This document shows positions 47,271-63,696 of a stretch of 64,000 bases of DNA, piece after piece; within the stretch, counting starts at the first letter, position 1, and each line of letters begins with the position of its first letter. A program made the position numbers and the translations under genes. This stretch comes from a virus: positions 1-64,000 of IMG/VR virus record IMGVR_UViG_3300020404_002650; one strand, 5' to 3'. A model generated the notes under the pieces. That model was given only the letters and a program-made list of their open reading frames with translations. It was not told the origin of the DNA and did no database searches.

Positions 47271-47733
47271 TTATAAAATTGATAAAGAGAAATACAGGAA
47301 AATATTTTTTGATATACATCAGCGTGGGGAATGGTATCAATGGAAAAAGTTTGAACCAAAACTATCTTGGTGGAAAGTTTATTTGCCAGACGGATCTGAC
47401 CTAAGGCACTTGACCAAAGAAGTAGAGGAGCATTTGGGTATATGGGGAATGAACACGTATCCAAGATTTGCATACCTGTTCGCCAACAACAACGTGCCAC
47501 CACATGTCGATGAGGACGACATGACAAGCATACAGATAAACCTGTTCGACAAGCAACCGGTGATGGTTGTAGAGGATCAACAAGTGCCATACGAGTGTGT
47601 GCTGTTAGAGAATGGAAAACTAAAGCATTGGGTTGAGCCTGTCAATTACGACAGACTGATGCTTAAATTTTGCATAAGGCATCCATGGCATGAAATTGTA
47701 GAGAGGATTCCAAATGAAATTCAAAACAGATAG
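47251..47733 (+). CDS. 2OG-Fe(II) oxygenase-like protein (small)
   Basis: 160 aa. LFANNNVPPHVDEDDMTSIQ gives His85 and Asp87; LLENGKLKHWVEPVNYDRLM gives His126 and Arg135; INLFDKQPVMVVEDQQVPYE lies between. Same general plan as the gene before it, but with little obvious sequence identity, so not a recent tandem duplicate. The N-terminus is Trp/Lys-rich (RGEWYQWKKFEPKLSWWKVY). It overlaps both neighbours by 20 bases. Confidence 0.65.
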   Translation: MNLIHLNYKIDKEKYRKIFFDIHQRGEWYQWKKFEPKLSWWKVYLPDGSDLRHLTKEVEEHLGIWGMNTYPRFAYLFANNNVPPHVDEDDMTSIQINLFDKQPVMVVEDQQVPYECVLLENGKLKHWVEPVNYDRLMLKFCIRHPWHEIVERIPNEIQNR

Positions 47734-48598
47734 GCCGTTCACGCAGGACGAATTAAAAGCAATGGACGTGATACATGATCCTGCTACTAGCCTATTTCAA
47801 GACCAAAATGATAAAAGTTATATTTTGCCAAACTTTATCAATGATGACGAATGTGATTTCCTTGCAAAGTTCTTTAATGATAATTTTGATAGGATAGGAT
47901 TAAACATTAACGATCACGTTTTGCATATCACTTATCCAATGGCTATCAAAGACATTGACGATATTGTGCGTCCAAAGATCTATGAGCACTTTGGCGACGA
48001 TGTGATATTTTATAGCGATGTGGCAGTTGATGATCCAATGAGTGTTGGGGACCAATTTTTTAAGAGTGTAAGGCCGTATGGTTTACACACTGACTCAGTG
48101 ACACACATAAATGGATACAGGCCATACAAAGACATCATCATCCCGATCGAGTTAGATAAAATTGTTAGCACTCAATACGTCACTTTCAACCAAAGATACA
48201 GAGGCAGGGCCACACACTTCATGAAAGGCAGAGACATAGGAAGTTTTGCCAATTATGCAAATGTAATTAGGCACCAGGACTACAAAGACTATGGGGTAGA
48301 AAACGTAGAGCATAATACAAGGGACATGGAAATACTAGGAAAAATTATGCCCAAACATATTCCCATGTCAATATACGAAGGACTATCAATTGAAAATATA
48401 TTTGAATGGAAGCCAAAAAATGCTATTGTACATGATGCAAGTGTCTTACATGCACCCACTGATTTCAGGGAACATGGCGCAAAATACAAGACAGGACTTA
48501 CACTGCACCTTATGAAGGCAGATGCCACATACAATAACAGATTAGAAGGATATTACACTCCGTTTAGCCGGTACACAAAGCCTTTAATCGAAGCATAA
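47714..48598 (+). CDS. 2OG-Fe(II) oxygenase-like protein, last of the run
   Basis: 294 aa. FFKSVRPYGLHTDSVTHING supplies His125 and Asp127; DIIIPIELDKIVSTQYVTFN follows; NAIVHDASVLHAPTDFREHG supplies His246; YKTGLTLHLM gives Lys/Thr at the usual Arg position. Residues 36-60 (YILPNFINDDECDFLAKFFN) resemble the helical start of prolyl-hydroxylase-like enzymes. The stop is followed after 10 bases by the second fibre gene. Confidence 0.7.
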   Translation: MKFKTDRPFTQDELKAMDVIHDPATSLFQDQNDKSYILPNFINDDECDFLAKFFNDNFDRIGLNINDHVLHITYPMAIKDIDDIVRPKIYEHFGDDVIFYSDVAVDDPMSVGDQFFKSVRPYGLHTDSVTHINGYRPYKDIIIPIELDKIVSTQYVTFNQRYRGRATHFMKGRDIGSFANYANVIRHQDYKDYGVENVEHNTRDMEILGKIMPKHIPMSIYEGLSIENIFEWKPKNAIVHDASVLHAPTDFREHGAKYKTGLTLHLMKADATYNNRLEGYYTPFSRYTKPLIEA

Positions 48599-48608
48599 AT
48601 ATGGTATA

Positions 48609-50231
48609 ATGGCGTATAAAATAAACAACACATTCGGCACCCTTCTGGTAACACTTGCTGACGGCACCATTGACACGGCCAAAACCGATATTACACTAAT
48701 CGGAAAAGGCTATGCAGGGTTCGGAGAAAGACTGAATGAAAACTTCGTAAAATTATTAGAGAATTTCAACAACACAACAGCACCTGCAAACAAGCAACAA
48801 GGCCAGTTATGGTTTGATAAAACCAACAAACAACTGAATGTTTACACAGGAGATAAATTCAAACCGGTAGGATCTACAACCAATTCTGCTACATCTCCCA
48901 CAAACGCTGTATTAGGTGACCTATGGTTCGATACTGCAAACAGCCAAATGTATGTGTATGATGGAACGGCATTCACACTTATAGGTCCAACAACGGTTAC
49001 AGGTTCTGGAGTTACACAGGTTGTCACAGAAGTTGTTCAAGACAACACAGGTGTAAACAGAAGTATTTTAAAATTAGTCACAAATGACACAGTAGTAGGA
49101 ATAATCTCAAACCTAGCATTTACGCCTAGTGGATCTGAAACAAATGCAGTGGCACTGACTGCCGCTGGATTCTCTTCAGTTGCACAAGGACTGCAACTTT
49201 CAACATCAGTTTCAAACAATAAATTTAGAGGCACTGCAACAGACTCAGATGCACTTGGAGGCATTGCAGTAGCAAATTTCTTAAGGTCTGATCAAAACGA
49301 CAGTACCACAGGACATTTAGAGATTCTTAATGACAACGGACTTAGAATTGGTGCTGGATCAGACATACAGATGACAATGTCTGGTGATAACTTCACCATT
49401 GCCAATGTTACAGAAAACGGTGATATTGCATTCACAGTAAATGATGGAGGCAGTACCAAGTCTGTAATCACTATGCATGGTGATTCAGGAGATGTAAGAA
49501 TTCATGGAAACTTGACTATCGATGGAGATACAGTAACTTCCAATACATCTACACTTACGGTAGAGGACAACATCATAGAATTAAACAGAAATGTATCATC
49601 CAATTCTGGAATGCCAAACCACACAGGACTGAAAGTCAACAGAGGCTCTGTATCAACAGCAACTGAACAAAATTTGTACTGGGTATGGGACGAAACGTTT
49701 GCAGATGACGGAACTACAATACATGGAAATGCGGGAGGAGCCTGGACAGCATTTAAGGCTTCAGAGACAGACACAGAACTAGAAGCACCCACACTGGTGG
49801 ACATTCGAGCAAATGTTGTACATGCGACATCGACATCGGCACAGTACGCTGACTTGGCGGAAAGGTATGCAACGGATGTTGCCCTGGAAGTTGGTGATGT
49901 TGTTGTGCTTGGTGGATCGCAGGAAATAACAAAATGCAACGACGAAATGAGCACCGCGGTGTTTGGTGTTGTATCCAAATCCCCGGCATTCTTAATGAAT
50001 GCAGAAGCGGGTGATGATGTCACACACCCAATGATAGCACTCAAAGGGCGTGTTTTGGTGAAAATCAAAGGTACGGCAAATCCAGGTGATCGCATTGTGA
50101 GTGCAGGTAATGGAGAGGCCAAAGTGGCTGATCTGGGTGACTGTACCGCTTTTAACGTGCTGGGCCGAGTTATCAAGCATAAATATTCACAAGAAACAGC
50201 ACTTACAGAGTGCGTGATAGGAGTCAAATAA
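48609..50231 (+). CDS. Tail fibre-like protein, second paralogue, with C-terminal processing-type domain
   Basis: 540 aa. Modules GKGYAGFGERLNENFVKLLE, GQLWFDKTNKQLNVYTG, GDLWFDTANSQMYVYDG and TATDSDALGGIAVANFLRSD match those in 37089-38306 in the same order. The middle adds GDVRIHGNLTIDGDTVTSNT and VEDNIIELNRNVSSNSGMPN. The C-terminal ~130 residues (SAQYADLAERYATDVALEVG, DVVVLGGSQ, VFGVVSKSPAFLMN, MIALKGRVLVKIKG) match the fibre C-terminal domain common in marine myoviruses and resemble peptidase-type intramolecular chaperone domains (AE.Y......GDVV..G). The first paralogue lacks this domain. Confidence 0.75.
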   Translation: MAYKINNTFGTLLVTLADGTIDTAKTDITLIGKGYAGFGERLNENFVKLLENFNNTTAPANKQQGQLWFDKTNKQLNVYTGDKFKPVGSTTNSATSPTNAVLGDLWFDTANSQMYVYDGTAFTLIGPTTVTGSGVTQVVTEVVQDNTGVNRSILKLVTNDTVVGIISNLAFTPSGSETNAVALTAAGFSSVAQGLQLSTSVSNNKFRGTATDSDALGGIAVANFLRSDQNDSTTGHLEILNDNGLRIGAGSDIQMTMSGDNFTIANVTENGDIAFTVNDGGSTKSVITMHGDSGDVRIHGNLTIDGDTVTSNTSTLTVEDNIIELNRNVSSNSGMPNHTGLKVNRGSVSTATEQNLYWVWDETFADDGTTIHGNAGGAWTAFKASETDTELEAPTLVDIRANVVHATSTSAQYADLAERYATDVALEVGDVVVLGGSQEITKCNDEMSTAVFGVVSKSPAFLMNAEAGDDVTHPMIALKGRVLVKIKGTANPGDRIVSAGNGEAKVADLGDCTAFNVLGRVIKHKYSQETALTECVIGVK

Positions 50232-50232
50232 A

Positions 50233-51207
50233 ATGGCATATGCATCAGGAGATACAATTACTGCGGCGCAGTATAATATCTTTGTAAACAATTCAACTAG
50301 TCCTTTTGGATACAACCACTTCGCAGGCACAGGAGCATCACAGTATGGCCTAGGCCAAACACACATAGAACAAGTGTCAGCAAGTGCTGGTAACATTACA
50401 GCGGCACAGTTCAACACATTATTCACAGGCATGACAAACATTGCCAATCATACAAACGACTCAATCACTTCAGCGGCAGAGGTATCCGCAGGAACGAATA
50501 TATCAGCAAGAGCCAATCTAGAGGCCAACCTGGCAACACTGGCGGCATCGGTCGCTGGCGGATGTGTCAATGCAACAGCAGTTTCAGAGTCATCAGAATT
50601 ACAAAGTTCACAGTCTAGCACAAGATGGACAGGCTCGCACACAGTTGAACACTCAATCACTTTTTCCAACAACAACGATCTAAGGCACTTCTTCAACGCA
50701 GGTGGCAAGATGAGGATGAAGTTTACAAGGACAGGAAATGGTGGAGGTTCTGCCACATCCAAAGACAGTTCAATGGATGAATTGATCACAGCAATCGGAA
50801 ACTTTGACCTAGGTTCAAATGTTTCAACAAGATCAGGGTCTGGTGAAACACTTACAACTGACGGTCTAGCAAACGGTACGCAAGACCTAGACAGTTCATA
50901 TACAGTTTTAATAAGTTTAACACAGGCTTCAGGCACATACACTTCAATGAATGTGAAGGTTGAGGCTAAACTCAACAACACTGACATCACAGACGCAACA
51001 GTTGTAACAATGAAGACAACACTGACTGATGCAGACTCAGGTGACAGTGAATTTACCAATGGTAACACATCTGGTGTTGACCAATACGCAAACTTCATCG
51101 GACAAACTGACATTGCTTTACACACAGTGAACCCAACGACAGCACAGGGTTTGGCAAGTGTGGCGGCAATCGCAAGTAGCGCCGAAGTCAGCAACAACAC
51201 AGCCTAA
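50233..51207 (+). CDS. Virion structural or fibre protein, unknown
   Basis: 324 aa, starting 1 base after the fibre stop. MAYASGDTITAAQYNIFVNN and SASAGNITAAQFNTLFTGMT are internal repeats of one pattern. The rest is Ser/Thr/Asn/Ala-rich beta sequence, with HTVEHSITFSNNNDLRHFFN, then AGGKMRMKFTRTG. The phrase F.N...LR.FFNAGG is frequent in marine phage structural proteins. Probably a fibre-associated or adhesin-like virion protein. A 250-aa frame on the opposite strand is a shadow caused by ACA/TGT codon composition. Confidence 0.6.
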   Translation: MAYASGDTITAAQYNIFVNNSTSPFGYNHFAGTGASQYGLGQTHIEQVSASAGNITAAQFNTLFTGMTNIANHTNDSITSAAEVSAGTNISARANLEANLATLAASVAGGCVNATAVSESSELQSSQSSTRWTGSHTVEHSITFSNNNDLRHFFNAGGKMRMKFTRTGNGGGSATSKDSSMDELITAIGNFDLGSNVSTRSGSGETLTTDGLANGTQDLDSSYTVLISLTQASGTYTSMNVKVEAKLNNTDITDATVVTMKTTLTDADSGDSEFTNGNTSGVDQYANFIGQTDIALHTVNPTTAQGLASVAAIASSAEVSNNTA

Positions 51208-51264
51208 TAATAATAACTATTCGCACTGCCAAATTTCTATCTGCTGTCTGGCGGCACAAATAAT

Positions 51265-51282
51265 TAACTGTATTAACAGTTA
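51265..51282 (+). promoter_or_regulatory. Perfect hairpin overlapping a start codon
   Basis: TAACTGT-ATTA-ACAGTTA, a perfect 7-bp inverted repeat whose last base is the A of the ATG at 51282. It could hide the start site, bind a regulator, or be a weak terminator after the structural block; no T run follows. Confidence 0.35.
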
Positions 51283-51602
51283 TGGATATTGGCAATATCA
51301 AAAAACAGGCAGACCTAAACTTCAAGGCATCACAGGCCAAGAAGAATGCATTGGAACGAATGCACTCTCGGCAACTAATGGCCTACAATGAAAGATTGCT
51401 CAAGGCCGATGCACAAACAATAAATCTGGTAAACAACCTAAAAGACAAGCACGATTGTTTCATGATCATGGACGTGAACGACAATCCATGTGAAGTGAAA
51501 GATCCTGACGATTTATTGTTCAAGTTGATTGAGAGAAATCAAGAGTCGCTAAACACCTACAAAGAAATACATGAGGATATCGCCAACAGAAAGTTTAAAT
51601 GA
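51282..51602 (+). CDS. Small helical protein, unknown
   Basis: 106 aa, no signal peptide or membrane segment. DIGNIKKQADLNFKASQAKK, then NALERMHSRQLMAYNERLL, is a long charged helix; CFMIMDVNDNPCEVKDPDDL looks like a short beta hairpin; ERNQESLNTYKEIHEDIANR is a second helix. No obvious ribosome binding site: the hairpin at 51265-51282 occupies that position. It overlaps the glycosyltransferase-like gene by 4 bases (ATGA), linking it to the second cargo block. Not recognised. Confidence 0.55.
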   Translation: MDIGNIKKQADLNFKASQAKKNALERMHSRQLMAYNERLLKADAQTINLVNNLKDKHDCFMIMDVNDNPCEVKDPDDLLFKLIERNQESLNTYKEIHEDIANRKFK

Positions 51603-52351
51603 ACGCTGGCGTATTAATATATTGTTTTGATACTCCGCAGGTCAAATATCATAAATTGGCCGAAAGGTGTGTGCAACAAATCAAAACAAAACTTAAACTT
51701 CCTATTACTATAATCACTGACATCGATACTTTCAAAAAATTCAGTCCCATGGGAATGATTAATTACAAGATTGTTGAGCCAAGCACAACAAATACAAGAG
51801 CATACCGCGGCAACAACATTGCGTGGTACAACAAAGAACGTGTTTTGGCCTTCGAACACTCACCTTATGATAAAACAATCCTGATGGATTGTGACTATTT
51901 TGTTTTTAGTGACAAACTTTTAGAACTGTTGAACACACAGTTCGATGTATTGTTGCACGATAAAGTTAGCGACATGACAGGCCTCGATAGCATAAGTGGG
52001 GATCAAGAAAGCACTTTGCCTTTGGTCTGGGCAACCGTAACATTGTTTGCTAAAACGGAACAGGCAAAAAAAGTTTTTGAACTTATTAAACATATACAAA
52101 AAAATTACGTGCATTACATGAATTTGTACAGAATAAAATACACAAACTATCGCAACGATTTTGCGTTTGCAATAGCCTTACATCAAATGGGAATAAATCA
52201 AAGGATACCTACTCCGATGAGCATGTTGTCAGATAATGCTTTGATAATAGAAAGCGACCAGCAAGGAGTGATGTTTAAACAAGGCGACACTGTGAACATT
52301 GTGAACCAACAAGACATACACATAATGGACAAGGAGTGGTGTAATGGATAG
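51599..52351 (+). CDS. Glycosyltransferase-like protein (DxD)
   Basis: 250 aa. MNAGVLIYCFDTPQVKYHKL begins a GT-A-like fold; PITIITDIDTFKKF is the next strand; YDKTILMDCDYFVFSDKLLE carries the DCD metal motif; PLVWATVTLFAKTEQAKKVF matches the later helix. C-terminal HIMDKEW completes the domain. Likely a cytoplasmic sugar transferase, of the same broad class as 39804-40379 and 52344-53129. ATGA coupling upstream, 8-base overlap downstream. Confidence 0.65.
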   Translation: MNAGVLIYCFDTPQVKYHKLAERCVQQIKTKLKLPITIITDIDTFKKFSPMGMINYKIVEPSTTNTRAYRGNNIAWYNKERVLAFEHSPYDKTILMDCDYFVFSDKLLELLNTQFDVLLHDKVSDMTGLDSISGDQESTLPLVWATVTLFAKTEQAKKVFELIKHIQKNYVHYMNLYRIKYTNYRNDFAFAIALHQMGINQRIPTPMSMLSDNALIIESDQQGVMFKQGDTVNIVNQQDIHIMDKEWCNG

Positions 52352-53129
52352 AGGATTTGTTTGGTTTGCTATCAATAACAGCACAACGGACTACGTTGAG
52401 ATCAGCAGAACACTGTCAAAGAGTATTAAGAAATACAACAAGCATAACAAAGTGTGCGTGATCACCGACAAGCCATTACAGGATCCTCTTTTTGATCATG
52501 TGGTTGTTCTTAAGCACGATGACAGCACAGGGCATGAATGGAAACTACACAACGAGCACAAGGTATTTCAACTTACGCCTTTTACTCACACTATAAAACT
52601 TGAGGCGGACATGGTGTTTACGCAAAACACCGATTGGTGGTGGTATTATCTCTGGCAACACGATCAAGTGTTTTCTTATAACTGCAGATCATACAAAGAT
52701 GATATTGTCACAGACAAGCATTACAGAAAACTTTTTGTCAGGAATGATCTACCAAATGTGTATAATGGATTGCACTATTTCCGTAGAAGCGTAGTTGCAA
52801 AAGAATTTTACGATATTTGCAGGACGATAACACAGAACTGGGAAGATATTAAAAAAGATGTTCTCATAAACTGCCACGACGATCAGCCAACTACCGATGT
52901 GGTTTATGCCCTCGCAAACAAATTGCAAGATCCGTTGCAATTGAAAAAAATAGATTACGAATGGTTCAAATTTATGCACAACAAACAATACATAAATGGT
53001 GTCGCATATGAAAATGACAACTATCTCAATCCTATTGCACTAGTCGACAGATTATACATAGGCGCACACAGGCAGAACCGTATTGTCCACTACCACAACA
53101 AAAAATTAAGGAAAATTTTAGATGTCTGA
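52344..53129 (+). CDS. Glycosyltransferase-like protein
   Basis: 261 aa. GFVWFAINNSTTDYVEISRT, then NKVCVITDKPLQDPLFDHVV, resembles the donor-binding region. FTHTIKLEADMVFTQNTDWW has EAD in the DxD position. YNGLHYFRRSVVAKEFYDIC and NCHDDQPTTDVVYALANKLQ match the acceptor-side part of this family, which is common in marine phages. A C-terminal HYHNKKLRK gives the final metal-binding-like His. Overlaps both neighbours by 8 bases. Confidence 0.65.
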   Translation: MDRGFVWFAINNSTTDYVEISRTLSKSIKKYNKHNKVCVITDKPLQDPLFDHVVVLKHDDSTGHEWKLHNEHKVFQLTPFTHTIKLEADMVFTQNTDWWWYYLWQHDQVFSYNCRSYKDDIVTDKHYRKLFVRNDLPNVYNGLHYFRRSVVAKEFYDICRTITQNWEDIKKDVLINCHDDQPTTDVVYALANKLQDPLQLKKIDYEWFKFMHNKQYINGVAYENDNYLNPIALVDRLYIGAHRQNRIVHYHNKKLRKILDV

Positions 53130-53433
53130 TATATTTGCAAGTTGGAGAAACTACAAGCCACCGGTCAAAAAGCATTTCGTCACTATAGATGGCAAAAAGA
53201 TACAAGTGAATCTTGAAAAGAAATTAGAAATAATGCGGCATGGTGAGGAGAAGTACATGATCAAGCCTGCAAAGTTTGGACCCGAGATCAAGTTACGTCC
53301 CAGGCAAAAAACCAAACGTGTCTTTACTACACTTGCTAACAAAAAAAACGGAATGAACTTTTTAGACAACGATCCGTGTTGGGTCGAAGGCACCACAGAG
53401 GAAGGATACGAATGGCAGATAGAGTCAGAATAA
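53122..53433 (+). CDS. Small basic protein, unknown
   Basis: 103 aa, very Lys-rich at residues 12-80 (YKPPVKKHFVTIDGKKIQVN; IKPAKFGPEIKLRPRQKTKR), then NDPCWVEGTTEEGYEW. No known domain, no membrane segment. It lies between two glycosyltransferase-like genes, overlapping them by 8 and 22 bases. A nucleic-acid or virion-binding role is conceivable from charge only. Confidence 0.5.
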   Translation: MSDIFASWRNYKPPVKKHFVTIDGKKIQVNLEKKLEIMRHGEEKYMIKPAKFGPEIKLRPRQKTKRVFTTLANKKNGMNFLDNDPCWVEGTTEEGYEWQIESE

Positions 53434-54311
53434 GCGATTTGGATTTTGTTTATATCTCTTTCAAAGAGCCAAACAAAGAACAGAACTGGATCGACCTTAA
53501 GAACAAAGTGCCATGGGCAAAACGTGTGGATGGTGTTGTTGGGTTCGACAACGCCCACAAGGCCGCGGCGGACAAAGCGGAAACTGATTTTTTCATTAGT
53601 GTGGACGGTGACAACATAATCGACGAAAGTTTTTTATTGCAAACACTTGACTGGTCAAAAACCAACAAAGATGCAGTACACAGATGGCGGGCAAGGAACA
53701 ACATCAATGGCCTTGTGTATGGCAATGGCGGTTTGGTGGGGTGGAACAAAAAGACGTGCATGGAAATGAAGACCCATGAGAACGCTGACGCAGATGAAAA
53801 CCAAATAGATTTCTGTTGGGGTGTGCCACACGAAAACCTGCACAACTGCTACTCCGAGACAGTGATAAACGCCACGCCACAGCAGGCTTTTGTGGCCGGA
53901 TACAGGGAAGGCGTAAAGATGAGCACGGACAAAGGCAAGCCTATCACTGCCAAAAACTACTCTCGAACAATATGGAGGAACAATCTCAACATACTCAGTA
54001 CCTGGTGCACGATCGGTGCAGATGTGGAGAATGGCAAGTATGCAATGTTGGGAGCGAGGATGGGGTGCTTCTATACGGTGCTGGAACCAAACAACGAATT
54101 TTTTAAGATAAGGGACCTCGATGAAATGCAGAACTATTTCAACGAGATAGACAAGGATAACATTGACGAACAACTACATGCATTTGGCAATAGCCTGCGA
54201 CAGCAATTGGACATACCAATTGCAGATTACAGCGAAGAGGACAGCAGGTTCTATAGATTCATCATGCCAAGGCATATCAACAAGGGAGTGCAAGATCGTG
54301 AGTACCAGTGA
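53412..54311 (+). CDS. GT2-like glycosyltransferase family protein
   Basis: 299 aa from the ATG at 53412 (GAAGGA upstream); a start at 53376 would lie deep in the previous gene. LDFVYISFKEPNKEQNWIDL and AKRVDGVVGFDNAHKAAADK resemble the GT2 N-terminus. ETDFFISVDGDNIIDESFLL holds the DGD metal motif. NGLVYGNGGLVGWNKKTCME fits the acceptor loop. The C-terminal third is helical. Together with the three other sugar-transferase-like genes it may build or decorate a glycan. The next gene starts inside its last 14 bases. Confidence 0.65.
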   Translation: MADRVRISDLDFVYISFKEPNKEQNWIDLKNKVPWAKRVDGVVGFDNAHKAAADKAETDFFISVDGDNIIDESFLLQTLDWSKTNKDAVHRWRARNNINGLVYGNGGLVGWNKKTCMEMKTHENADADENQIDFCWGVPHENLHNCYSETVINATPQQAFVAGYREGVKMSTDKGKPITAKNYSRTIWRNNLNILSTWCTIGADVENGKYAMLGARMGCFYTVLEPNNEFFKIRDLDEMQNYFNEIDKDNIDEQLHAFGNSLRQQLDIPIADYSEEDSRFYRFIMPRHINKGVQDREYQ

Positions 54312-55668
54312 TTACAAAGCAGACGCACTGAAGGCCAAGGATAAATTAAAGCAAATTTCTCCCACGATGTGTCTGGCAAAATGGAACCAGACGTCACTGC
54401 ATCTGCCAACAGGCATGACCAACTCCTGTTATCATCCACCACTGCACAACATTGACGCAAGGCAACTGGAGAGGAATCCGGCCGCACTGCACAACACAGT
54501 GGAAAAACTGGAACAAAGATTTCAAATGCTACAAGGCGAACGTCCCAAAGGATGTTCATACTGCTGGAAACTGGAGGACACCGGTGAGATGTCGGACAGG
54601 CACTACAGGTCCGGGGAGCCATGGGCCATGCAGGACTTCGAGCAGATCAAACAGAATCCAATGACAACAAGTTGGACACCGAGGTATGTGGAGGTAAACT
54701 TTAACAACGCTTGTAACTTCAAGTGTAGTTACTGTTCTCCGCAATTCTCAACAACGTGGGGCAAGGAGGTGGAACGTTATGGCCAATATCCGACCACCCC
54801 TCCCCACAATGCACCAGAGCACTTTCAGGGCAGGAGACGTCCGATACCGAACAGGGAGGAAAACCCCTATGTGACAGCGTTCTGGAAATGGTGGCCCACA
54901 TTGTACAAGAATCTTAAACACTTCCGCATGACCGGAGGCGAACCCATGATGGACAAAAACACCTACAAGGTGTTCCAATACATAATAGATCATCCAAAAG
55001 CGGACCTACACCTTAACGTCACAAGCAACATGTGTCCACCGGACAAGAAGTTAAAAGAGAAGTATTTCAACATGGCACAGACGATTTGTATGCAGGAGAA
55101 AGTGGAACACATGATGCAGTTTGTTAGCGTTGATGCATTTGGTAAACGTGCAGAATACATACGTGACGGCCTGGATTTCAATTACATGATGGACAACGTC
55201 GAGGAATTCCTAGATAGAATACCTGTGCGTAATTCGATAACATTTATCTGCACATACAACAATCTCAGCATCACAAGTATGGATAAACTGCTGGAGAAGA
55301 TACTTGAACTGCGAACAAAGTACAGCAAGACCTATCAGCGTGTATGGTTCGATGTGCCACTGTTGCGGCAACCTGCTTGGCAACAGATCACACTTTTGCC
55401 CGAGTCCTATCAGAGCATACATGAGGCCAACATAGAATACATGAAAAATAATTCTGGCGAGGACAACGGGTTGCACATATTCAAGGATTTTGAAATTCAG
55501 AAGATGCAGAGGAATCTCGCATATTGGCGCGAAAACGCTGACGCAAGTACGCAAAATAAAAAAAACTTTTACGCTTTTTTTACTGAACACGATCGCAGAC
55601 GTACTACAAGATTTTTAAACACATTTCCAGAAATGGAAGATTTTTGGGCGGAGTGCAGTAATATATGA
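54298..55668 (+). CDS. Radical SAM protein with Cys-rich N-terminal region, type A
   Basis: 456 aa from a GTG at 54298, chosen because AAGGGAG lies ~10 bases upstream and a longer frame would sit in the previous gene. CNFKCSYC (Cys139, 143, 146) is the CxxxCxxC that binds the radical-generating 4Fe-4S cluster; FRMTGGEPMMD is the GGEP SAM motif. The N-terminus has Cys25, Cys44 and GCSYCW (Cys86, Cys89), a twitch/SPASM-like auxiliary cluster region placed before the core. Such proteins use a 5'-deoxyadenosyl radical to modify peptides, sugars or nucleic acids; the substrate is unknown. Most like 56248-57591. Confidence 0.8.
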   Translation: MSTSDYKADALKAKDKLKQISPTMCLAKWNQTSLHLPTGMTNSCYHPPLHNIDARQLERNPAALHNTVEKLEQRFQMLQGERPKGCSYCWKLEDTGEMSDRHYRSGEPWAMQDFEQIKQNPMTTSWTPRYVEVNFNNACNFKCSYCSPQFSTTWGKEVERYGQYPTTPPHNAPEHFQGRRRPIPNREENPYVTAFWKWWPTLYKNLKHFRMTGGEPMMDKNTYKVFQYIIDHPKADLHLNVTSNMCPPDKKLKEKYFNMAQTICMQEKVEHMMQFVSVDAFGKRAEYIRDGLDFNYMMDNVEEFLDRIPVRNSITFICTYNNLSITSMDKLLEKILELRTKYSKTYQRVWFDVPLLRQPAWQQITLLPESYQSIHEANIEYMKNNSGEDNGLHIFKDFEIQKMQRNLAYWRENADASTQNKKNFYAFFTEHDRRRTTRFLNTFPEMEDFWAECSNI

Positions 55669-56267
55669 AAAGTATAGGATTTTTTGGAGACAGTTTTTGT
55701 GCAAGTAATCAACCCGAGAGTTGGTGCAATATACTTCAGGAAAAACTAGGCGCCAATCGAATAAGGTGGTTCGGTGAGCCTGGGAGAAGCATATGGAGTG
55801 CAATGTTTAGATTCAATAGATTAATACAACAAGATAGGGTACCGGATATATCTATATTTTGCTGGACAGAGCCTTACAGATTGTACCATCCCAATTTAAT
55901 TTTGAGTGCAAATACACAACCATTGGAGGGAGTAGATCCAAAAGTATATGAGACCTTAGACAACTATTGGAAATATCTACACAACTACGATAAAGACGAA
56001 ATGGCATACGAATATGCCCTAAAGTATTACGATCAAAATGTGCTGTCAAAAGTTAAAAGTGAGATAGTACAGATGTGGAGTTTCCGCCCTTTTGAAACCG
56101 CTGACAAAGATGCAGGAATAAAATTATCCACAGGCACATTCATAGACGAAAGCATATTCGAATTTAGTGGGGGTAACGACAACTGGGGCAAAGGCACTAT
56201 CAACCATATGACAGTGGAACAGAATCAACAATGGGCAGAAAAGATTTATGGACGACTTACAATTTAA
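55665..56267 (+). CDS. SGNH/GDSL-like hydrolase
   Basis: 200 aa. MKSIGFFGDSFCASNQPESW has the block-I GDS with nucleophilic Ser (residue 10). WFGEPGRSIWSAMFRFN fits block II (Gly), and GKGTINHMTVEQNQQWAEKI gives the late His (block V, HMT in place of DxxH, with preceding N). The block-III GxND Asn is not obvious. SGNH enzymes remove or transfer acyl groups on sugars or peptides. It lies between two type A radical SAM genes, coupled by ATGA upstream and a 20-base overlap downstream. Confidence 0.6.
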   Translation: MKSIGFFGDSFCASNQPESWCNILQEKLGANRIRWFGEPGRSIWSAMFRFNRLIQQDRVPDISIFCWTEPYRLYHPNLILSANTQPLEGVDPKVYETLDNYWKYLHNYDKDEMAYEYALKYYDQNVLSKVKSEIVQMWSFRPFETADKDAGIKLSTGTFIDESIFEFSGGNDNWGKGTINHMTVEQNQQWAEKIYGRLTI

Positions 56268-57591
56268 AAAGCAAAAGTTAGATACTAAATCCGCAAGTTT
56301 TTGTGCGGCCAAGTGGTACAACGCAACTATCTGGTTGGGCAGTGGTATGACCACAAGTTGCCACCATCCTTTACCTCACAAAATTGATCTTGAGGAGATC
56401 AAGACAAATCCGAGCGCCATACACAACACACGGCAAAAGAAAGAGCAACGTAGGCAAATGCAGTGTGGTGATAGGCCTGCAGGATGTGAATATTGCTGGA
56501 AGATAGAGGACATCGGCAGAGACGCAATCAGTGACAGGGTATATAAATCAAAAATTTACACTGATAAGGAATTGGACGACGCATACAAATCAGATCATAA
56601 CAGAAATTTTAATTTAAGGACCTTGGAAATTGCTTTTGATAGAGTGTGTCAGTTTGCCTGCACATATTGTAATCCTGCTTTTAGTACAACATGGGCAAAC
56701 AACATTAAAAATCAAGGACCATATATGAGCCTAATGTCTGATGGACGTAACCACTTCACTCATGCACATGATTCAGCGGAACCATACAAAAAAGATGAGA
56801 CCAATCCTTATGTCGAGGCATTTTATAAATGGTGGGAGAGCGATCTGCATAAAACACTAGACGAATTGCGTATCACGGGAGGAGAACCAATGATGTCTCC
56901 TAACCTATGGAGACTGCTTGATTGGATAGAAACGCAAGGTGACAAAATGAGACCTGGTATGCGTATTGCAATAAATTCAAATCTTGGCGCCAAACAAAGT
57001 ATTATTGATAGATTCAAAAACAAACTGAAAGGATTTAAAAACTTTCATTTGTATACAAGTTGTGAAGCAACATTTAAACAAGCAGAGTATATCAGAGATG
57101 GACTCAATTATGGAGAATGGCACTCTAATCTGTTACATATGATGGTTGATAAAGTTCCATCTGAAATTCATAATATGTGTACCATAAATGCCTTGTGTTT
57201 AGAATCATTGCCTGAATTTTTAGAGAAAATGGTTTGGTTTAAAACAGCAAGTGCAATATATGGACCAACCATCAATTACACACTTAACATTTTGAGATTT
57301 CCTAGTTTTCAATCGCCGCTAGTACTACCGGATGACTTAAGGAATAAATTTAAAATGGACCTGGTAAAGTTTTTAAGTAAGAATGAAAAATATTTAGAAC
57401 AAATGGAAGTGAATCATACACAAAGATTAATAGATTATTTAGATGTAGTGAAGACACCACACGCAGGTGCGGCCGAACAAAGCAAACTGCAAAAGGATTT
57501 CAAGGCATTTTACAGCCAATATGACAAACGACAAGGAAAGGACTTTGAAAAGACTTTCCCAATTATAGGAGAATGGTACCGTGGCATATGA
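56248..57591 (+). CDS. Radical SAM protein with Cys-rich N-terminal region, type A
   Basis: 447 aa. CQFACTYC (Cys134, 138, 141) binds the 4Fe-4S cluster; LRITGGEPMMSP is the SAM motif. The N-terminus has FCAAKW (Cys19), TTSCHHPLPH (Cys38) and GCEYCWKIED (Cys80, Cys83). The same order and wording appear in 54298-55668 (MCLAKW, NSCYHPPLH, GCSYCWKLED, FSTTW after the core Cys), so the two are paralogues. The C-terminal DKRQGKDFEKTFPIIGEWY parallels HDRRRTTRFLNTFPEMEDFW of the other. Likely heterologous partners or successive enzymes of one pathway. Confidence 0.8.
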   Translation: MDDLQFKKQKLDTKSASFCAAKWYNATIWLGSGMTTSCHHPLPHKIDLEEIKTNPSAIHNTRQKKEQRRQMQCGDRPAGCEYCWKIEDIGRDAISDRVYKSKIYTDKELDDAYKSDHNRNFNLRTLEIAFDRVCQFACTYCNPAFSTTWANNIKNQGPYMSLMSDGRNHFTHAHDSAEPYKKDETNPYVEAFYKWWESDLHKTLDELRITGGEPMMSPNLWRLLDWIETQGDKMRPGMRIAINSNLGAKQSIIDRFKNKLKGFKNFHLYTSCEATFKQAEYIRDGLNYGEWHSNLLHMMVDKVPSEIHNMCTINALCLESLPEFLEKMVWFKTASAIYGPTINYTLNILRFPSFQSPLVLPDDLRNKFKMDLVKFLSKNEKYLEQMEVNHTQRLIDYLDVVKTPHAGAAEQSKLQKDFKAFYSQYDKRQGKDFEKTFPIIGEWYRGI

Positions 57592-58870
57592 TTACGGGGC
57601 AAAAGAGCCTGAAAAATTAAAAATTAAGGACATGACGGACCGTCAGAAGGAACTCCTGATAGAAAGTGACACTTTCTGTATGCTTCCTTGGATGCATCTC
57701 CATGCATACCCTGATGGCAGGGCATACCCTTGTTGTTTTAGTTTTGATCGCTATCCGGTTGGAGACTTCAACAAAAACAGTATGAAGGAAGTTTTCAACA
57801 ATGATAAAATGAAGGAAATGCGTAGGAACATGTTGTCAGGTAAGAAATGCAAACAGTGTGTGAAGTGTTATGACCAAGAAGACTCAGGGTTCTTTTCATT
57901 GCGTTTAAGTTCAAACAAGCATTTTGGACACAACATTGATTTAGTAGATTCAACCCAAGCAGACGGTACCGCAGACTTTGTAATGAAATATTGGGATATA
58001 AGATTTAGCAATATATGTAATTTTGCATGTAGAAGTTGTGGAACATGGTTTAGTTCTAATTGGTATGAGGATCATATTAAAATAAATGGTGGCCCACCTA
58101 ACCATGCCAAGATAATAAAAGTTGGCAGGAAAGCAGACGATATGTGGGAACAGGTTTTGGAAAATATCGATCATGCTGAACAATTTTATTTTGCAGGTGG
58201 AGAACCATTGATAATGGAAGAGCATTATAGGATTTTAAAAGAATTAGATAGAAGAAAGGCATATCATATTAGATTGATATACAATACTAATTTTTCACGC
58301 CTTAAATTCAAAGACATGGATGTATTAGAATTATGGAATAAATTTGATTCTGTATCTGTTGGTGCCAGTCTTGACGCTGAAGGGCCACGTGCAGAGTTGA
58401 TGCGTACCGGCACTAAATGGGAACAGACTATTGCCAATAGAAAAAGAATGATGGAAGTATGTCCAAAGGTCGACTTTTATATTTCTTCGACTGTGAGTCT
58501 TCCAAATGCATTTCACGTTGCAGACTTTCATAGGAGTTGGGTAGAGCAAGGCCTAATCAAACCACAGGATTTTAACTATAACCTTTTACAAATGCCAACT
58601 TGGCAAAGAATGGACATTCTTCCATTAGAATTTAAAGAACAGATCAAAGAAAAATATACAACACATTTAAAATGGTTAAAGGAACAGGATCATCTTACTC
58701 GTGCTAGTAAGGGATATGAATCTGCTTTGGATTGGATGTTCAAGAAAGATAATACTAGGCATCTTCCATGGTTTTTTGAAAGAACGAAGAAGTATGACGA
58801 AGTAAGAAATGAAAAATTTATAGAGGTGTTCCCTGAATGGAAGGAACTTTTTGACAAATATGACAAATAG
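57581..58870 (+). CDS. Radical SAM protein with twitch/SPASM-like N-terminus, type B
   Basis: 429 aa from a GTG at 57581 with AGGAG 9 bases upstream. The N-terminal domain FCMLPWMHLHAYPDGRAYPC, C (Cys33, 51, 52) and then CKQCVKC (Cys90, 93, 96) follows the C.LPW.H......G...PCC plan. The core is ICNFACRSCG (Cys146, 150, 153), with FYFAGGEPLIMEEHY as SAM motif. All cluster ligands are intact. The C-terminus ends in EVFPEWKEL, a motif also seen in the type A proteins. It overlaps the upstream gene by 11 bases. Confidence 0.8.
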   Translation: MAYDYGAKEPEKLKIKDMTDRQKELLIESDTFCMLPWMHLHAYPDGRAYPCCFSFDRYPVGDFNKNSMKEVFNNDKMKEMRRNMLSGKKCKQCVKCYDQEDSGFFSLRLSSNKHFGHNIDLVDSTQADGTADFVMKYWDIRFSNICNFACRSCGTWFSSNWYEDHIKINGGPPNHAKIIKVGRKADDMWEQVLENIDHAEQFYFAGGEPLIMEEHYRILKELDRRKAYHIRLIYNTNFSRLKFKDMDVLELWNKFDSVSVGASLDAEGPRAELMRTGTKWEQTIANRKRMMEVCPKVDFYISSTVSLPNAFHVADFHRSWVEQGLIKPQDFNYNLLQMPTWQRMDILPLEFKEQIKEKYTTHLKWLKEQDHLTRASKGYESALDWMFKKDNTRHLPWFFERTKKYDEVRNEKFIEVFPEWKELFDKYDK

Positions 58871-60197
58871 GATCAAACCTAATGAGGGCAATAAAACATT
58901 TTGCATGGCCCCGTGGACACACACTTACCTATCCCCACAGATGGAGAGAAGGTTGTGTTGCAGTTCTAGAGAGTCATCGGAAAACTTCAAGCAATACATA
59001 GACACGATAGATCCAAAAGGACACAATGATAAGATAAATCTTACCTCACTAGAACAACACTGGAATTCAGACTATATGAAAAGCGTGAGGTTAAAGTTAT
59101 TAGCAGGCGAAGAAATACCGCAGTGTGCTGTGTGCAATCACAAACTATTAAATGAACAGGTATATAGGCAACACTTCAATTGGCTGTATAGAAATAAAAT
59201 TGACGAAGCATTTGACAGCACAGACGAAACAGGTGCCACGACTATGCAGACAGAAAGTTTTGATTATAGATTTTCTAACCTGTGCAACTTCAGTTGTAGG
59301 ATGTGTGGCGATATGTTAAGCAGTAGTTGGGAAACTGAAAACAAAAAACACGGAAAAGGCGACTACGAAAATTATAGGATCTGGGGCAGGAAAGATATCA
59401 AAGAACAATTATCTAAATTCCACGATCAACAAATAGTAAAAGAATTTACACAGGCAGTTGAGCAAAAACGTATCACAGAATTATATTGGTGCGGAGGAGA
59501 ACCGTTGATGTGGAAAATACATTGGGAAGCAATGAAGAGGATCATTGAACTAGGCTATCAGGACCAAGTACTAGCAAGGTACAACTCAAACATGAGTAGA
59601 ATACATTTTTACAAATACAACTTGTTTGATGATATATTGAAACACTTTCCAAAATTCCAAATATGTGCTTCCATCGATGGCACTGGGGAAATTGGAGAAT
59701 ACATCAGGACAGGATTGAAGTATGACGAATGGTTGTCAAACATGAAGTACGGTCTGCAATTTGTCAAACAGGAACAACAGAGAATGCAGTTGGACTTAAC
59801 AATTACGTTGCCAGGTTTGTTCGACCTAGAAAACATGGTATTGTTAAGCAACGAATTGAACATTGAATTGCTTACAAAACAAGTGTTCAATTTCTCGCAT
59901 GACAACGCAATGGCGCCACTGTTCATGCCTTATGATATTATGAGTGAGATAATAGATGACGCAAGAGAAAAAACTATCAAATACAAAAACTGGAAGTTGA
60001 ACAACTTTTTTGGCCAATTGGAAGAAATGCAAAAACAAAAAAGGAATAATGAACTGGTATATGACGAACAAACTTATAAGCAAGGTCAAAAACAAGGCAA
60101 AGCAGAAGTCGAAAGATTAGATAAAATTAGAGGCACAGATATCAAAAAGATACTGTCTAAAAACAAAAGGGCATTGGAGTGGTGGACAAGTATCTAA
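58860..60197 (+). CDS. Radical SAM protein with twitch/SPASM-like N-terminus, type B
   Basis: 445 aa from the ATG at 58860; a TTG at 58851 lies closer to AAGGAA and may be used instead. FCMAPWTHTYLSPQMERRLC, C (Cys15, 33, 34) and CAVC (Cys89, 92) form the N-terminal cluster region; HWNSDYMKSVRLKLLAGEEI is the usual helix before it. The core LCNFSCRMCG has Cys142, 146 and 149, and LYWCGGEPLMWKIHW the SAM motif. The C-terminal ~80 residues are highly charged helix (EEMQKQKRNNELVYDEQTYK). Overlaps both neighbours. Confidence 0.8.
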   Translation: MTNRIKPNEGNKTFCMAPWTHTYLSPQMERRLCCSSRESSENFKQYIDTIDPKGHNDKINLTSLEQHWNSDYMKSVRLKLLAGEEIPQCAVCNHKLLNEQVYRQHFNWLYRNKIDEAFDSTDETGATTMQTESFDYRFSNLCNFSCRMCGDMLSSSWETENKKHGKGDYENYRIWGRKDIKEQLSKFHDQQIVKEFTQAVEQKRITELYWCGGEPLMWKIHWEAMKRIIELGYQDQVLARYNSNMSRIHFYKYNLFDDILKHFPKFQICASIDGTGEIGEYIRTGLKYDEWLSNMKYGLQFVKQEQQRMQLDLTITLPGLFDLENMVLLSNELNIELLTKQVFNFSHDNAMAPLFMPYDIMSEIIDDAREKTIKYKNWKLNNFFGQLEEMQKQKRNNELVYDEQTYKQGQKQGKAEVERLDKIRGTDIKKILSKNKRALEWWTSI

Positions 60198-61345
60198 AAT
60201 CAAACATTTGTCCATTGCCATGGACGCATCTCGAGGTGGATGTAAATGGAGGTGCATCTCCTTGTTGTCTATACAAGGGAAGTGTACCTGGTGTAAAGGT
60301 CTATGAGCAGAGTTTGAAATCCATTCAAGACAGTGAGTATATGGACAAACTTCGAGAAAAATTCCGTAAGGGCGAGAGACCAAGTGGCTGTGCAAACTGT
60401 TGGGCGGAAGAGGACGCAGGCAAGACAAGTAAAAGGCAAAATTCATTGTACAAGATGTCAAAAACTTTGAAAGACTGGACACCTAGTAGCGAGCCAAATC
60501 TCAAATTCATAGACTTTAAGTTAGGCAACGTGTGTAATTTAAAGTGCAGAATCTGTGGATCGTGGAGTTCGTCTAAATGGGCTCAAGAAGAAATGGACTA
60601 TGGCGACAATCCTGTGGCACTAAAAAATTTACGTGAGGGCGGCTGGCCAAAACGTAATCCGCAATTTTTTGAGGAGTTACAGGAAGACCTCAAGCACGTG
60701 GAGTATTTTGAATTCACTGGAGGCGAACCTTTCATGATCAAGGACCATTTCAAGATACTGATGCACTGCGTTGAGAAGGGATATGCAAAGAACATCGATA
60801 TACATTACAATACCAACGGAACGCAACTTCCACCACAGGAAATTTTTGATCTGTGGTCATACTTTAAGCACGTCGAAATAGCATTTTCGATAGACGACAT
60901 AGGACCTGCTTTTGAATATCAGAGGCATCCTGCCAATTGGCGTGAGGTAAGTGCAAACCTGGTCAAGTTCAAGGAACGCAAAACAGAAAACATGGATTTC
61001 CAGATATGCACAACTGTATCAATATTCAATGTGTTCAATTGGGCCAAGATAGCATTGTGGGTCGCCCAGTATCAGCCAAAATTTTTCTATGTAAACACCT
61101 GCTTCGATCCGGATGTGTTTAACATACAAACTCTGCCACAGCAAATAAAAGACATCGTTGATACGAGATATCATATGTTGACGGATTTCCAACCATCATT
61201 GAGGTACATGAATGCGGCTGACAGAGATACACCGGAAATACGTGAACAAAGGAAAGCAAGGATATTGCAGACTGACAAGTACAGGAAAGAAAATTTTGGA
61301 GATACGTTTCCACTTTTAAATAAGGTTTTACAAATATATGAATAA
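60179..61345 (+). CDS. Radical SAM protein with twitch/SPASM-like N-terminus, type B
   Basis: 388 aa from GTG at 60179 (a second GTG follows at 60182). ICPLPWTHLEVDVNGGASPC, C (Cys11, 29, 30) and SGCANCWAEED (Cys71, 74) form the N-terminal region. The core VCNLKCRICGSWSSSKW has Cys119, 123 and 126, and FEFTGGEPFMIKDHF the SAM motif. VEIAFSIDDIGPAFEYQRHP is the typical substrate-side strand. It is the shortest of the five and closest to stand-alone twitch-domain radical SAM proteins. The 3' end RKENFGDTFPLLNKVL parallels the ends of the others. Overlaps the next gene by 8 bases. Confidence 0.8.
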   Translation: MVDKYLKSNICPLPWTHLEVDVNGGASPCCLYKGSVPGVKVYEQSLKSIQDSEYMDKLREKFRKGERPSGCANCWAEEDAGKTSKRQNSLYKMSKTLKDWTPSSEPNLKFIDFKLGNVCNLKCRICGSWSSSKWAQEEMDYGDNPVALKNLREGGWPKRNPQFFEELQEDLKHVEYFEFTGGEPFMIKDHFKILMHCVEKGYAKNIDIHYNTNGTQLPPQEIFDLWSYFKHVEIAFSIDDIGPAFEYQRHPANWREVSANLVKFKERKTENMDFQICTTVSIFNVFNWAKIALWVAQYQPKFFYVNTCFDPDVFNIQTLPQQIKDIVDTRYHMLTDFQPSLRYMNAADRDTPEIREQRKARILQTDKYRKENFGDTFPLLNKVLQIYE

Positions 61346-62108
61346 AAAACTTTTGATATCGGGTTGCAGTTATGGGGTGGTGTATTCAGAGATACAGGAT
61401 GATCTTAAAAAGATTTTCAACGTAGATGAAGTTGTGAATTTGTCACAGAATGGCGGATCTCCGGACAGGGCAATCAGGGTAGCAATAGAATGGATAGCAC
61501 AAAACGGCAAACCTGACATGTTGATACTGCCCGTAAGTCATTACAATAGATTTGATTTGCCAATCGCAGAACGGATGGATCCTTTACACAATTTGCATTT
61601 TAGGTCTACCTGGCATATGGATCTTAGCAAAAATTATGGTTCTGCTACGCCTATCGATCCAAAATTTGATAGAGATAATCTACAAACATTTTTAAAGACG
61701 GGAGTGCTAGTTCATCAAAATGATTACCCGGCACACGATTATTTGTTCGTAAAACTAATAACATTCCAATCATTTTTACAACTTAACAAAATTAAGCACT
61801 TGATTTTTGATACAGGAAACTATTATGAAAAGTTATGGAATACACAACAACCAGGAATGCAAAAAAGAAAATTGATTGAGAACTGCAAAGGCATTTACAA
61901 ACTATTTTCTTTTTGTTCTAATGTGTGGATGTATAACCAACTGACAGATAAAGAAAAAATAGATTACATACCCTGGTGGAAGCCACAGGGGAAAAAGCCA
62001 TTGGGTAAGATAGTACCAGATACCGTTGCCGCGACAATACATTTCCAAAAGCAAGAAGTGGTAAAACTTATGCAACATCTGAAAAAGGAAGGAGCAGTGC
62101 ATGAGTAA
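61338..62108 (+). CDS. SGNH-hydrolase-like protein with GCS in place of GDS
   Basis: 256 aa. LLISGCSYGVVYSEIQDDLK occupies the block-I position with Gly-Cys-Ser; VVNLSQNGGSPDRAIRVAIE matches block II (G); PDMLILPVSHYNRFDLPIA matches the strand before block III. The C-terminal VPDTVAATIHFQKQEVVKLM gives a plausible block-V His. The family typically acts on O-acyl groups of glycans. The Asp to Cys change does not affect the nucleophile itself. It forms a pair with the next gene (GGCSFTFG) and is coupled to it by an 8-base overlap. Confidence 0.55.
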   Translation: MNKKLLISGCSYGVVYSEIQDDLKKIFNVDEVVNLSQNGGSPDRAIRVAIEWIAQNGKPDMLILPVSHYNRFDLPIAERMDPLHNLHFRSTWHMDLSKNYGSATPIDPKFDRDNLQTFLKTGVLVHQNDYPAHDYLFVKLITFQSFLQLNKIKHLIFDTGNYYEKLWNTQQPGMQKRKLIENCKGIYKLFSFCSNVWMYNQLTDKEKIDYIPWWKPQGKKPLGKIVPDTVAATIHFQKQEVVKLMQHLKKEGAVHE

Positions 62109-62916
62109 TAAAAAATTTATAGCAGGCGGTTGTAGTTTTACTTTCGGGCATGAACTTGGAGACGAGCAGGACGGCAAAGTGCCATCTAAGAAATCATGGG
62201 CCTATAGACTGTATGACCAAATTCCAGATAAAGACAAAACATTCATTAACACCGCATGCGGTGGCATAGGCAACTGTGGAATAGCAAGGAGGGTATTTCA
62301 GGAAGTATCAAAGCATCCGCCAATGGACATAGGCGGCGTGTTTGTGATGTGGACATTTGCTTCAAGGTATGACTGGGCATTTCCTAGGTATGCAGGGTTG
62401 GAAAACAGCAGGTGGGCATCTATCACTCCATGGGACACAAAGATGGGTTTTGAGGAGAGGCACAAGGCACTTGCAAATTCTGAAATTCAACAACAGCAAT
62501 ATGACAGTAGATCTCAAAAATACCAAAAGGCAGGTGTGGCGCCATTTGCAGATGCATTGTACAGGTACGCCGCAAACCAGTTCCATGAACTATATCTAAC
62601 CTACAACGCTATTATTTGGTTACAGAATCTTTTACAAAAAAAGAAAATACCATTTATGTTTACTCTGGCCGACAATAGCCTGTTCTACGATAAGATGGAG
62701 GAACACAGGAAACACGAGCCGTTGTTGAATGCACTACACAACGAAATTGATTTTACCAGATGGGCAAGTTTTGGTGAAAGAATGATGGGATTCAACCAAT
62801 GGTCTTTGTTGAATGATTACGAAAGAGGGACAACACATCCACTAGACAAAGCACACAGAGATGCTATAATGTTATTGTTACCAAAGTTTAAAGAATACAT
62901 AGGAGAAAAGAAATGA
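62101..62916 (+). CDS. SGNH-hydrolase-like protein
   Basis: 271 aa. KKFIAGGCSFTFGHELGDEQ is the block-I equivalent; FINTACGGIGNCGIARRVFQ matches block II; FVMWTFASRYDW the following strand. THPLDKAHRDAIMLLLPKFK ends with a Pro-Leu-Asp-x-x-His arrangement like the catalytic D..H of SGNH enzymes. Overall plan is shared with phage proteins annotated as SGNH/GDSL hydrolases. Large Trp/Tyr/Arg-rich middle region (about 85-170). The stop overlaps the start of a 34-aa gene. Confidence 0.6.
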   Translation: MSNKKFIAGGCSFTFGHELGDEQDGKVPSKKSWAYRLYDQIPDKDKTFINTACGGIGNCGIARRVFQEVSKHPPMDIGGVFVMWTFASRYDWAFPRYAGLENSRWASITPWDTKMGFEERHKALANSEIQQQQYDSRSQKYQKAGVAPFADALYRYAANQFHELYLTYNAIIWLQNLLQKKKIPFMFTLADNSLFYDKMEEHRKHEPLLNALHNEIDFTRWASFGERMMGFNQWSLLNDYERGTTHPLDKAHRDAIMLLLPKFKEYIGEKK

Positions 62917-63017
62917 TTGCATGGTTCAAAAAAATGATTAACAAGTTAAGAGAAGAGATCAAGTACAGGAAAAGATTAAAAGAACTTAAGAAAAAAGACC
63001 CGTTTATATACAAGTAA
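62913..63017 (+). CDS. 34-aa conserved-looking small phage protein
   Basis: MIAWFKKMINKLREEIKYRK, then RLKELKKKDPFIYK. ATGA overlap with the upstream stop and GGAGAAAAG before the ATG. Short basic helical proteins ending in K(R)DPFIY(K) are frequent in marine T4-like phages. An N-terminal amphipathic helix could touch the membrane. Function unknown. Confidence 0.6.
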   Translation: MIAWFKKMINKLREEIKYRKRLKELKKKDPFIYK

Positions 63018-63018
63018 A

Positions 63019-63696
63019 ATGGAAATTCTGAATAGAGAGAAACTGAAAGAAGTTTTGCAAAGATGGAAAGAGCATCCATCTATTACAGGACTTATGGAAA
63101 AATTTTCACAGTTGCAATCATACACAAACAAAAATTACAAAAATTTAGAATTATATACTAAACAGAAAATCAAAGAATCAAAATACGAACTGGTCGAATT
63201 GCCATACATTGATGTCTCGGAAGATCCTGTGCGACCTGAACTAGACTTGGCTTTTAGGCAATCTTATGGTAGAAAGATTTACGGTTTGAAAGACGATGTT
63301 GGAGAAATATCTGCTGTGATGTGTTTTGCATTTACTAATGAAGTACCAAAAACAATAGAAGAAATGGATAGTTTAAGTTATGACGCCGCTTTACAATCAG
63401 TACACAGGGCAGGTATACAAGGTTCAATAGCCATAGCCTACACTGTGTGGGCAAAGAAAAAAGGCGGTGGTAGGGCCATAGTCAACGAGGTGTATAAAAT
63501 GGTCAAAAAGTCAAATCATTTAAATCGATTGGTTACACTATCTCCTCTTACAAAAATGGCAAGGAATTTTCATATTAAAAATGGTGCTAAAGAATTACAA
63601 GTAAATGAAAAATCACAAAATTTTGAATATGATATTACATTAGAAGATTGGGAAACAGCACTAGTAAAAGCAAAAGGATTTCTAAAAGTCAAATGA
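63019..63696 (+). CDS. GNAT-like acetyltransferase, putative
   Basis: 225 aa. After a helical N-terminus comes GEISAVMCFAFTNEVPKTIE, then GSIAIAYTVWAKKKGGGRAI followed by VNEVYKMVKKSNHLNRLVTL. The GGGRAI stretch before a helix resembles the acetyl-CoA-binding Q/RxxGxG/A loop. SPLTKMARNFHIKNGAKELQ fits the final GNAT helix and strand. I recall similar proteins in marine phage genomes. Acceptor unknown. Starts 1 base after the previous stop; stop overlaps the next ATG. Confidence 0.6.
   Translation: MEILNREKLKEVLQRWKEHPSITGLMEKFSQLQSYTNKNYKNLELYTKQKIKESKYELVELPYIDVSEDPVRPELDLAFRQSYGRKIYGLKDDVGEISAVMCFAFTNEVPKTIEEMDSLSYDAALQSVHRAGIQGSIAIAYTVWAKKKGGGRAIVNEVYKMVKKSNHLNRLVTLSPLTKMARNFHIKNGAKELQVNEKSQNFEYDITLEDWETALVKAKGFLKVK

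Follow-up and report, generated by a model that had tools for sequence, protein, structure and literature searches.

Radical S-adenosylmethionine (rSAM) genes have been described in marine T4-like phages. The host-recognition cluster of pelagimyophages was reported to carry rSAM cassettes together with GT8 enzymes (PMC7029224), and the T4-like marine viral genome TARA_ERS488813_N000010 was reported with twelve rSAM genes (PMC5332604). Cassettes of rSAM and GT8 genes in such phages are already known, and the array examined here is a variant of them. It lies in IMG/VR record IMGVR_UViG_3300020404_002650, a linear record of 65,727 bases from a large marine phage, of which the first 64,000 bases were analysed (hereafter the window). 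The original prediction, made from the letters of the window, had described five rSAM proteins with three SGNH-like hydrolases in one coupled array and knew of no system with this content, a statement that was too strong given the two reports above.

Two fibre-like genes (48609 and 50233) and a small gene (51282) were followed in the window by an uninterrupted run of genes in the order GT1, GT2, small gene, GT3, A1, SGNH1, A2, B1, B2, B3, SGNH2 and SGNH3 (Table 1), where GT stands for glycosyltransferase and A and B for the two rSAM subtypes. All junctions from 51599 to 62916 overlapped, as had been claimed, by 4-22 bp, including the 22 bp between GT3, which starts at ATG 53412, and the gene before it. 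We regard the run as probably, if by no means certainly, a fibre-linked cassette for glycan assembly and tailoring in a large T4-related (jumbo-type) phage lineage.

Gene content and order were conserved across uncultured viral loci. Scans anchored on A1 and B1 gave 158 loci, 93 with long flanks and 58 of those with distinct A1 sequences; the anchor genes are present by construction in these scans and the remaining genes are not. Each of GT1-3, A1, A2 and B1-B3 was found in 56-58 of the 58 distinct loci, with GT1-GT2-GT3 alongside A1 in 57-58, exactly five N-terminal twitch (N-twitch) rSAMs in 47, the exact gene order of the window in 34 and that order but for an exchange of B2 and B3 in another 13. 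The family of the fibre gene at 48609 was present in 83 of the 93 long-flanked loci and that of the second, fib320, in 90. The expected co-conservation of the rSAM, glycosyltransferase and SGNH genes therefore held for the first two groups; the SGNH genes were the least conserved part of the array (SGNH1 in 8/58 distinct loci, the SGNH3 family in 49/58, and no relative of SGNH2 among the fetched loci).

Two further scans were anchored on GT3 without selection for rSAM genes, with some contigs recurring between scans. Among loci with enough upstream sequence, fib320, s105, GT1 and GT2 stood ahead of GT3 in 56/56 of the first scan and 57/62 of the second (113/118 in total), and N-twitch rSAMs followed GT3 in 45/55 and 20/51 loci, respectively. 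Eight loci of the first scan were without any recognised rSAM, and most of the loci in which no N-twitch rSAM followed had just another GT3-like gene behind. From these counts, the fixed part is a core of fibre gene, small gene, GT1, GT2, slot gene and GT3, and the rSAMs form a zone, presumably for tailoring, that varies in number and kind. This core with its variable zone replaces the set of five rSAM and three SGNH genes as the evolutionary unit.

The five rSAM genes proved intact, each reading frame being open over the coordinates claimed and containing a single CxxxCxxC, a single GGEP and 4-6 cysteines near the N-terminus. All five exceeded the curated cut-off (170 bits) of the NCBIfam model NF033640 (N_Twi_rSAM), with 294.7-413.4 bits and nearly the full model covered, and chance was therefore excluded. 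Cysteines 25, 44, 86 and 89 and cysteines 139, 143 and 146 were invariant among 15 A1 sequences, while relatives of B1 retained F32-C33, C51, C52, C93 and C96 plus C146, C150 and C153; the N-terminal set would fit one auxiliary cluster in N-twitch rSAMs. The proposed division into subtypes A (54298, 56248) and B (57581, 58860, 60179) was recovered with support of 100 in a tree of 175 proteins. Omega was 0.01-0.07 for the rSAMs where measurable (0.02-0.03 for A2), showing strong purifying selection; because dN/dS was saturated for the glycosyltransferases and B3, omega values are restricted to the SGNH genes and the remaining rSAMs. B1 had no match to solved structures at 0.001.

Table 1. Features of the fibre-linked array and its flanks in the window
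Feature	Coordinates	Strand	Basis
Tail-fibre-like virion protein	48609..50231	+	Peptidase_G2 (self-cleaving chaperone) domain, Pfam PF11962; phrog_19602 tail fibre
fib320, second fibre-like protein	50233..51207	+	First gene of invariant core; sequence and position
s105, small conserved protein	51282..51602	+	Alignment; precedes GT3 in 56/56 loci
GT1, GT8-like glycosyltransferase with DxD	51599..52351	+	Profile match to GT2, 99.5% probability
GT2, GT8-like, glycogenin-related	52344..53129	+	Profile against glycogenin-1, E 2.8e-8; EADM
Small protein, slot between GT2 and GT3	53122..53433	+	Slot conserved, sequence divergent
GT3, divergent GT-A-like protein	53412..54311	+	DGDN invariant (alignment)
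rSAM A1 (N-terminal twitch rSAM)	54298..55668	+	GTG start; NF033640 326.2 bits
SGNH-like protein 1 (SGNH1), variable slot	55665..56267	+	GDSF motif; profile match to SGNH3 family, E 1.6e-7
rSAM A2	56248..57591	+	NF033640 294.7 bits
rSAM B1	57581..58870	+	GTG start; NF033640 413.4 bits; Pfam SPASM and Radical_SAM, each above cut-off
rSAM B2	58860..60197	+	NF033640 309.8 bits
rSAM B3	60179..61345	+	GTG start; NF033640 372.6 bits
SGNH-like protein 2 (SGNH2)	61338..62108	+	Profile match to SGNH3 family, E 1.3e-8; weak DUF6071
SGNH-like protein 3 (SGNH3)	62101..62916	+	Profile; predicted fold
Protein often after array	63019..63696	+	Family in 59 loci

The sugar-transferase-like genes said to lead into the array were borne out to differing degrees. 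GT2 was assigned to GT8 through glycogenin, with EADM in place, and GT1 as its relative with a DxD motif (D97 and D99 invariant in the alignment). The AlphaFold2 (AF2) model of GT3 (pLDDT 87) had GT-A enzymes and nucleotidyltransferases as its best matches, all weak (E 0.0096 at best). The GT3 sequence had a weak PF00535 match and, in a search of solved structures, chance matches only. Judged by its sequence and position, fib320 appears to be a fibre-like protein; its family was found in all 56 loci of the first GT3 scan and had no PHROG match.

Other sugar-related genes were co-located with the array. Among the 93 long-flanked loci a Nol-like carbamoyltransferase lay downstream in 77, an SDR/NAD epimerase in 42 and a DegT aminotransferase in 31, with a PIG-L deacetylase in some. 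In the record of the window itself, the part beyond the window held a small AAA/APS-kinase-like gene and then a carbamoyltransferase, in which the record ends. Two families lacking a Pfam match, c11 (about 337 aa) and c13 (about 359 aa), recurred in viral loci alongside the rSAM zone (for example L163:4844-5857 and L125:15710-16789), and c11 also adjoined bacterial rSAM genes.

Three SGNH-like genes were present as described. SGNH3 was recognised by profile and by its AF2 model (pLDDT 87.6), which matched an acetylxylan esterase/GDSL fold in the PDB (E 3.9e-5), and profile-profile matches were the only tie of SGNH1 and SGNH2 to it, so that these two are putative members. The nucleophile S12 of block I was invariant in SGNH3 and the C-terminal H246 nearly so. 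Block III GxND was not kept in SGNH3 (WTxPxR instead) and its HPL motif was without the canonical Asp of DxxH, for which reason only the name SGNH-like is used.

The rSAM set was not confined to phages, and the same subfamilies were found arrayed on Bdellovibrionota chromosomes. In an A1 scan of 84,980 species genomes, relatives were nearly confined to Bdellovibrionota, apart from phage contigs binned into metagenome-assembled genomes (L170-L173, L177 and L178), the labels of which were excluded as host evidence. The FastTree groups B1 (99), B2 (100), B3 (99), A2 (95) and A1 (87) each mixed phage proteins with proteins from bacterial records, some of which are misbinned phage; L175, L206 and L207 provided chromosomal members. 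Seven Bdellovibrionota genomes had 7-26 N-twitch matches each, and 16 of 59 sampled members of the phylum exceeded the NF033640 cut-off. Tandem arrays intermixed with other rSAM and B12-rSAM families were seen in L212, L213, L214 and L222 and in genomes G003, G006 and G007, with 22-26 N-twitch matches.

A family-2 glycosyltransferase gene lay within 10 kb of 10 of the 34 Bdellovibrionota N-twitch clusters against 2.6 expected (about fourfold). Bdellovibrionota A1 genes were found within loci of family-2 glycosyltransferase, GDP-mannose dehydratase, nucleotidyltransferase and GDSL genes, and sugar loci included L179, L181, L192 and L216. GT3 relatives occurred in three of the seven genomes, most copies adjoining N-twitch genes. 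The core of fibre gene, s105, GT1 and GT2 was never found in the bacterial loci examined, and the reading as one host cassette of known function was rejected, the bacterial relatives being rSAMs without this core. Flagellin genes lay within about 10 kb of N-twitch rSAMs in three Bdellovibrionota genomes (L176:11577-18273, L179:1896-2780 and G064:C2:257824-261500); most other Bdellovibrionota rSAM clusters were far from flagellin and the linkage is therefore taken as a hint only.

The window was clearly of phage origin, its baseplate hub and wedge, SbcC/SbcD-like, late sigma and virion genes marking a T4-related myovirus. By the baseplate wedge and SbcC-like protein its closest isolates were jumbo phages such as PA5oct, Atu_ph07, SCTP-2 and Phosso (34-48% identity), and an assignment to the pelagimyophages was dropped on this account. 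Contigs bearing relatives of the array reached 607,744 bases. A search of 50,697 isolate phage records gave no match to A1, GT2 or GT3, and distant B-like proteins were found there only in Vibrio phages K566 and K567 and in one single-cell contig. Vibrio phage K566 (L210), an isolated 255-kb phage with three to four distant B-type rSAMs in a cluster, is a possible cultivable model, and a marine single-cell viral contig (L211, MH319727.1) had two SGNH-like genes, a carbamoyltransferase and a B-type rSAM in series. Elsewhere in the window, a 4,215-aa virion structural gene (23703-36350) matched phrog_10938, and an island upstream of the fibre genes (42442-48598) encoded a fatty-acid desaturase, two Asp/Asn beta-hydroxylase-like proteins, a TauD-type dioxygenase and a methyltransferase, likewise in overlapping order.

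In the cassette that we favour, GT1-GT3 would assemble a short glycan and the five twitch rSAMs would remove hydrogen from the sugars of that glycan or from activated sugar precursors, leaving these oxidised, epimerised or deoxygenated. A precedent is the twitch rSAM BtrN, which oxidises an aminocyclitol, a sugar-like ring (PMC9012708). Side groups may be added, removed or supplied by the SGNH proteins together with the enzymes encoded downstream (carbamoyltransferase, epimerase and aminotransferase), and the finished glycan would alter recognition through masking, receptor use or the exclusion of rivals. It would most probably sit on the fibre of the virion itself or on the host surface, with a slight tilt to the fibre because the linkage to one fibre gene is fixed and the array encodes no membrane proteins, while published accounts point rather to the host surface (PMC7029224, PMC2984593); no protein within 48609-63696 had a transmembrane-like segment and all array proteins were predicted to be soluble. 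We infer the sugar substrate, the type of chemistry, the target and the benefit alike, and several observations weigh against the scheme. A known reaction for any N-twitch rSAM was not found in the literature searched, and SPASM/twitch rSAMs act on peptides more often than on other substrates. Certain viral clades had the glycosyltransferase core without rSAMs, 24 of the 34 Bdellovibrionota clusters had no nearby glycosyltransferase (for example L212 and L222), and the linkage to the fibre gene may simply mirror late expression.

The same genes could serve to remodel the host surface (lipopolysaccharide (LPS) or O-chain) of an infected cell, chiefly as a means of keeping competing phages out, with a purely positional link to the fibre genes. 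Surface modification was proposed for the equivalent, GT8-rich host-recognition region of pelagimyophages (PMC7029224) and host-surface change for the LPS clusters of cyanophages (PMC2984593, PMC3037559), and the carbamoyltransferase, DegT, SDR and PIG-L genes are of a kind typical for surface sugars. Within 48609-63696, however, the lack of transmembrane-like segments in the array proteins means that no flippase, polymerase or ligase is encoded, so the host would need to supply these, and work on LPS does not call for so strict a linkage to a single fibre gene and to s105 as was seen in the more than 100 loci examined; we hold this alternative to be possible but doubtful. That the rSAMs act directly on a protein or peptide, in a maturation like that of ribosomally synthesised and post-translationally modified peptides (RiPPs) or in fibre side-chain chemistry, with the glycosyltransferases glycosylating the same protein, appears unlikely. 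SPASM/twitch rSAMs are commonly peptide-acting, those of the window had weak matches to peptide maturases, two Asp/Asn beta-hydroxylase-like genes lie in the upstream island and several Bdellovibrionota A1 genes or loci are near flagellin genes, but no PqqD/RRE domain was detected, no peptide-maturation family passed its cut-off, the overlap of all array junctions leaves no room for a precursor, and the small genes s105 and the slot gene show no leader/core pattern. Identity as a RiPP cluster was rejected, with no RRE, precursor or protease seen. The original prediction had left open a pathway based on glycans or on peptides, and the neighbouring genes in phages and bacteria support the glycan half and not the other.

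Decoration of phage DNA bases by the glycosyltransferases and rSAMs is highly improbable. Base-modification systems do include mixtures of glycosyltransferase, rSAM and 2-oxoglutarate (2OG)-oxygenase, but the array lies in the late structural region behind the fibres with its linkage to the fibre genes fixed, two of its glycosyltransferases are glycogenin-like and the parts that were scanned yielded no gene for base synthesis. A wider and more tentative idea, somewhat unlikely in our estimation, extends the glycan cassette to an undescribed radical glycan system that predatory Bdellovibrionota and jumbo-type phages would have in common. The N-twitch sets would there be interchangeable tailoring modules that act on the glycan of a surface filament (the tail fibre and perhaps flagellin) and produce many variants of its sugars, to be used in recognition or masking.

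A fibre-glycosyltransferase core is kept by many uncultured viral contigs, often with several genes behind it for members of a radical enzyme family without a known reaction. Should sugars prove to be their substrates, these enzymes would open up a large and so far unused stock of radical carbohydrate chemistry and add a new layer to phage-host recognition. With their parallel arrays, predatory bacteria offer genomes for testing the rSAM family, and viral clades without rSAMs serve as a natural control.

The fixed fibre-glycosyltransferase core, the set of five subtypes, its order and the Bdellovibrionota parallel were not found in the open-licence papers searched, and earlier descriptions may exist. 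The cassettes of the pelagimyophage cluster are variable (PMC7029224), whereas the glycosyltransferase core and the order of the five genes are fixed here, and the baseplate and SbcC-like proteins of the window are nearest to those of jumbo phages. TARA_ERS488813_N000010 is similar as a marine T4-like genome rich in rSAM genes, although the available portion of its report treats these only as iron-sulfur proteins, without gene order or neighbours. The LPS clusters of cyanophages P-SSM2, S-SM2 and S-SSM7 also place sugar genes, including a carbamoyltransferase, in T4-like phages, but PMC2984593 and PMC3037559 name no rSAM there (0 occurrences). Bdellovibrionota arrays share the same five subtypes in tandem, at times accompanied by members of the GT3, SGNH-like and c11 families, and differ in being chromosomal and in many cases without glycosyltransferases. 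Finally, all five window proteins belong to the NF033640 subfamily, the model of which carries no assigned reaction, and the array differs in that five ancient subtypes are held together in a fixed order.

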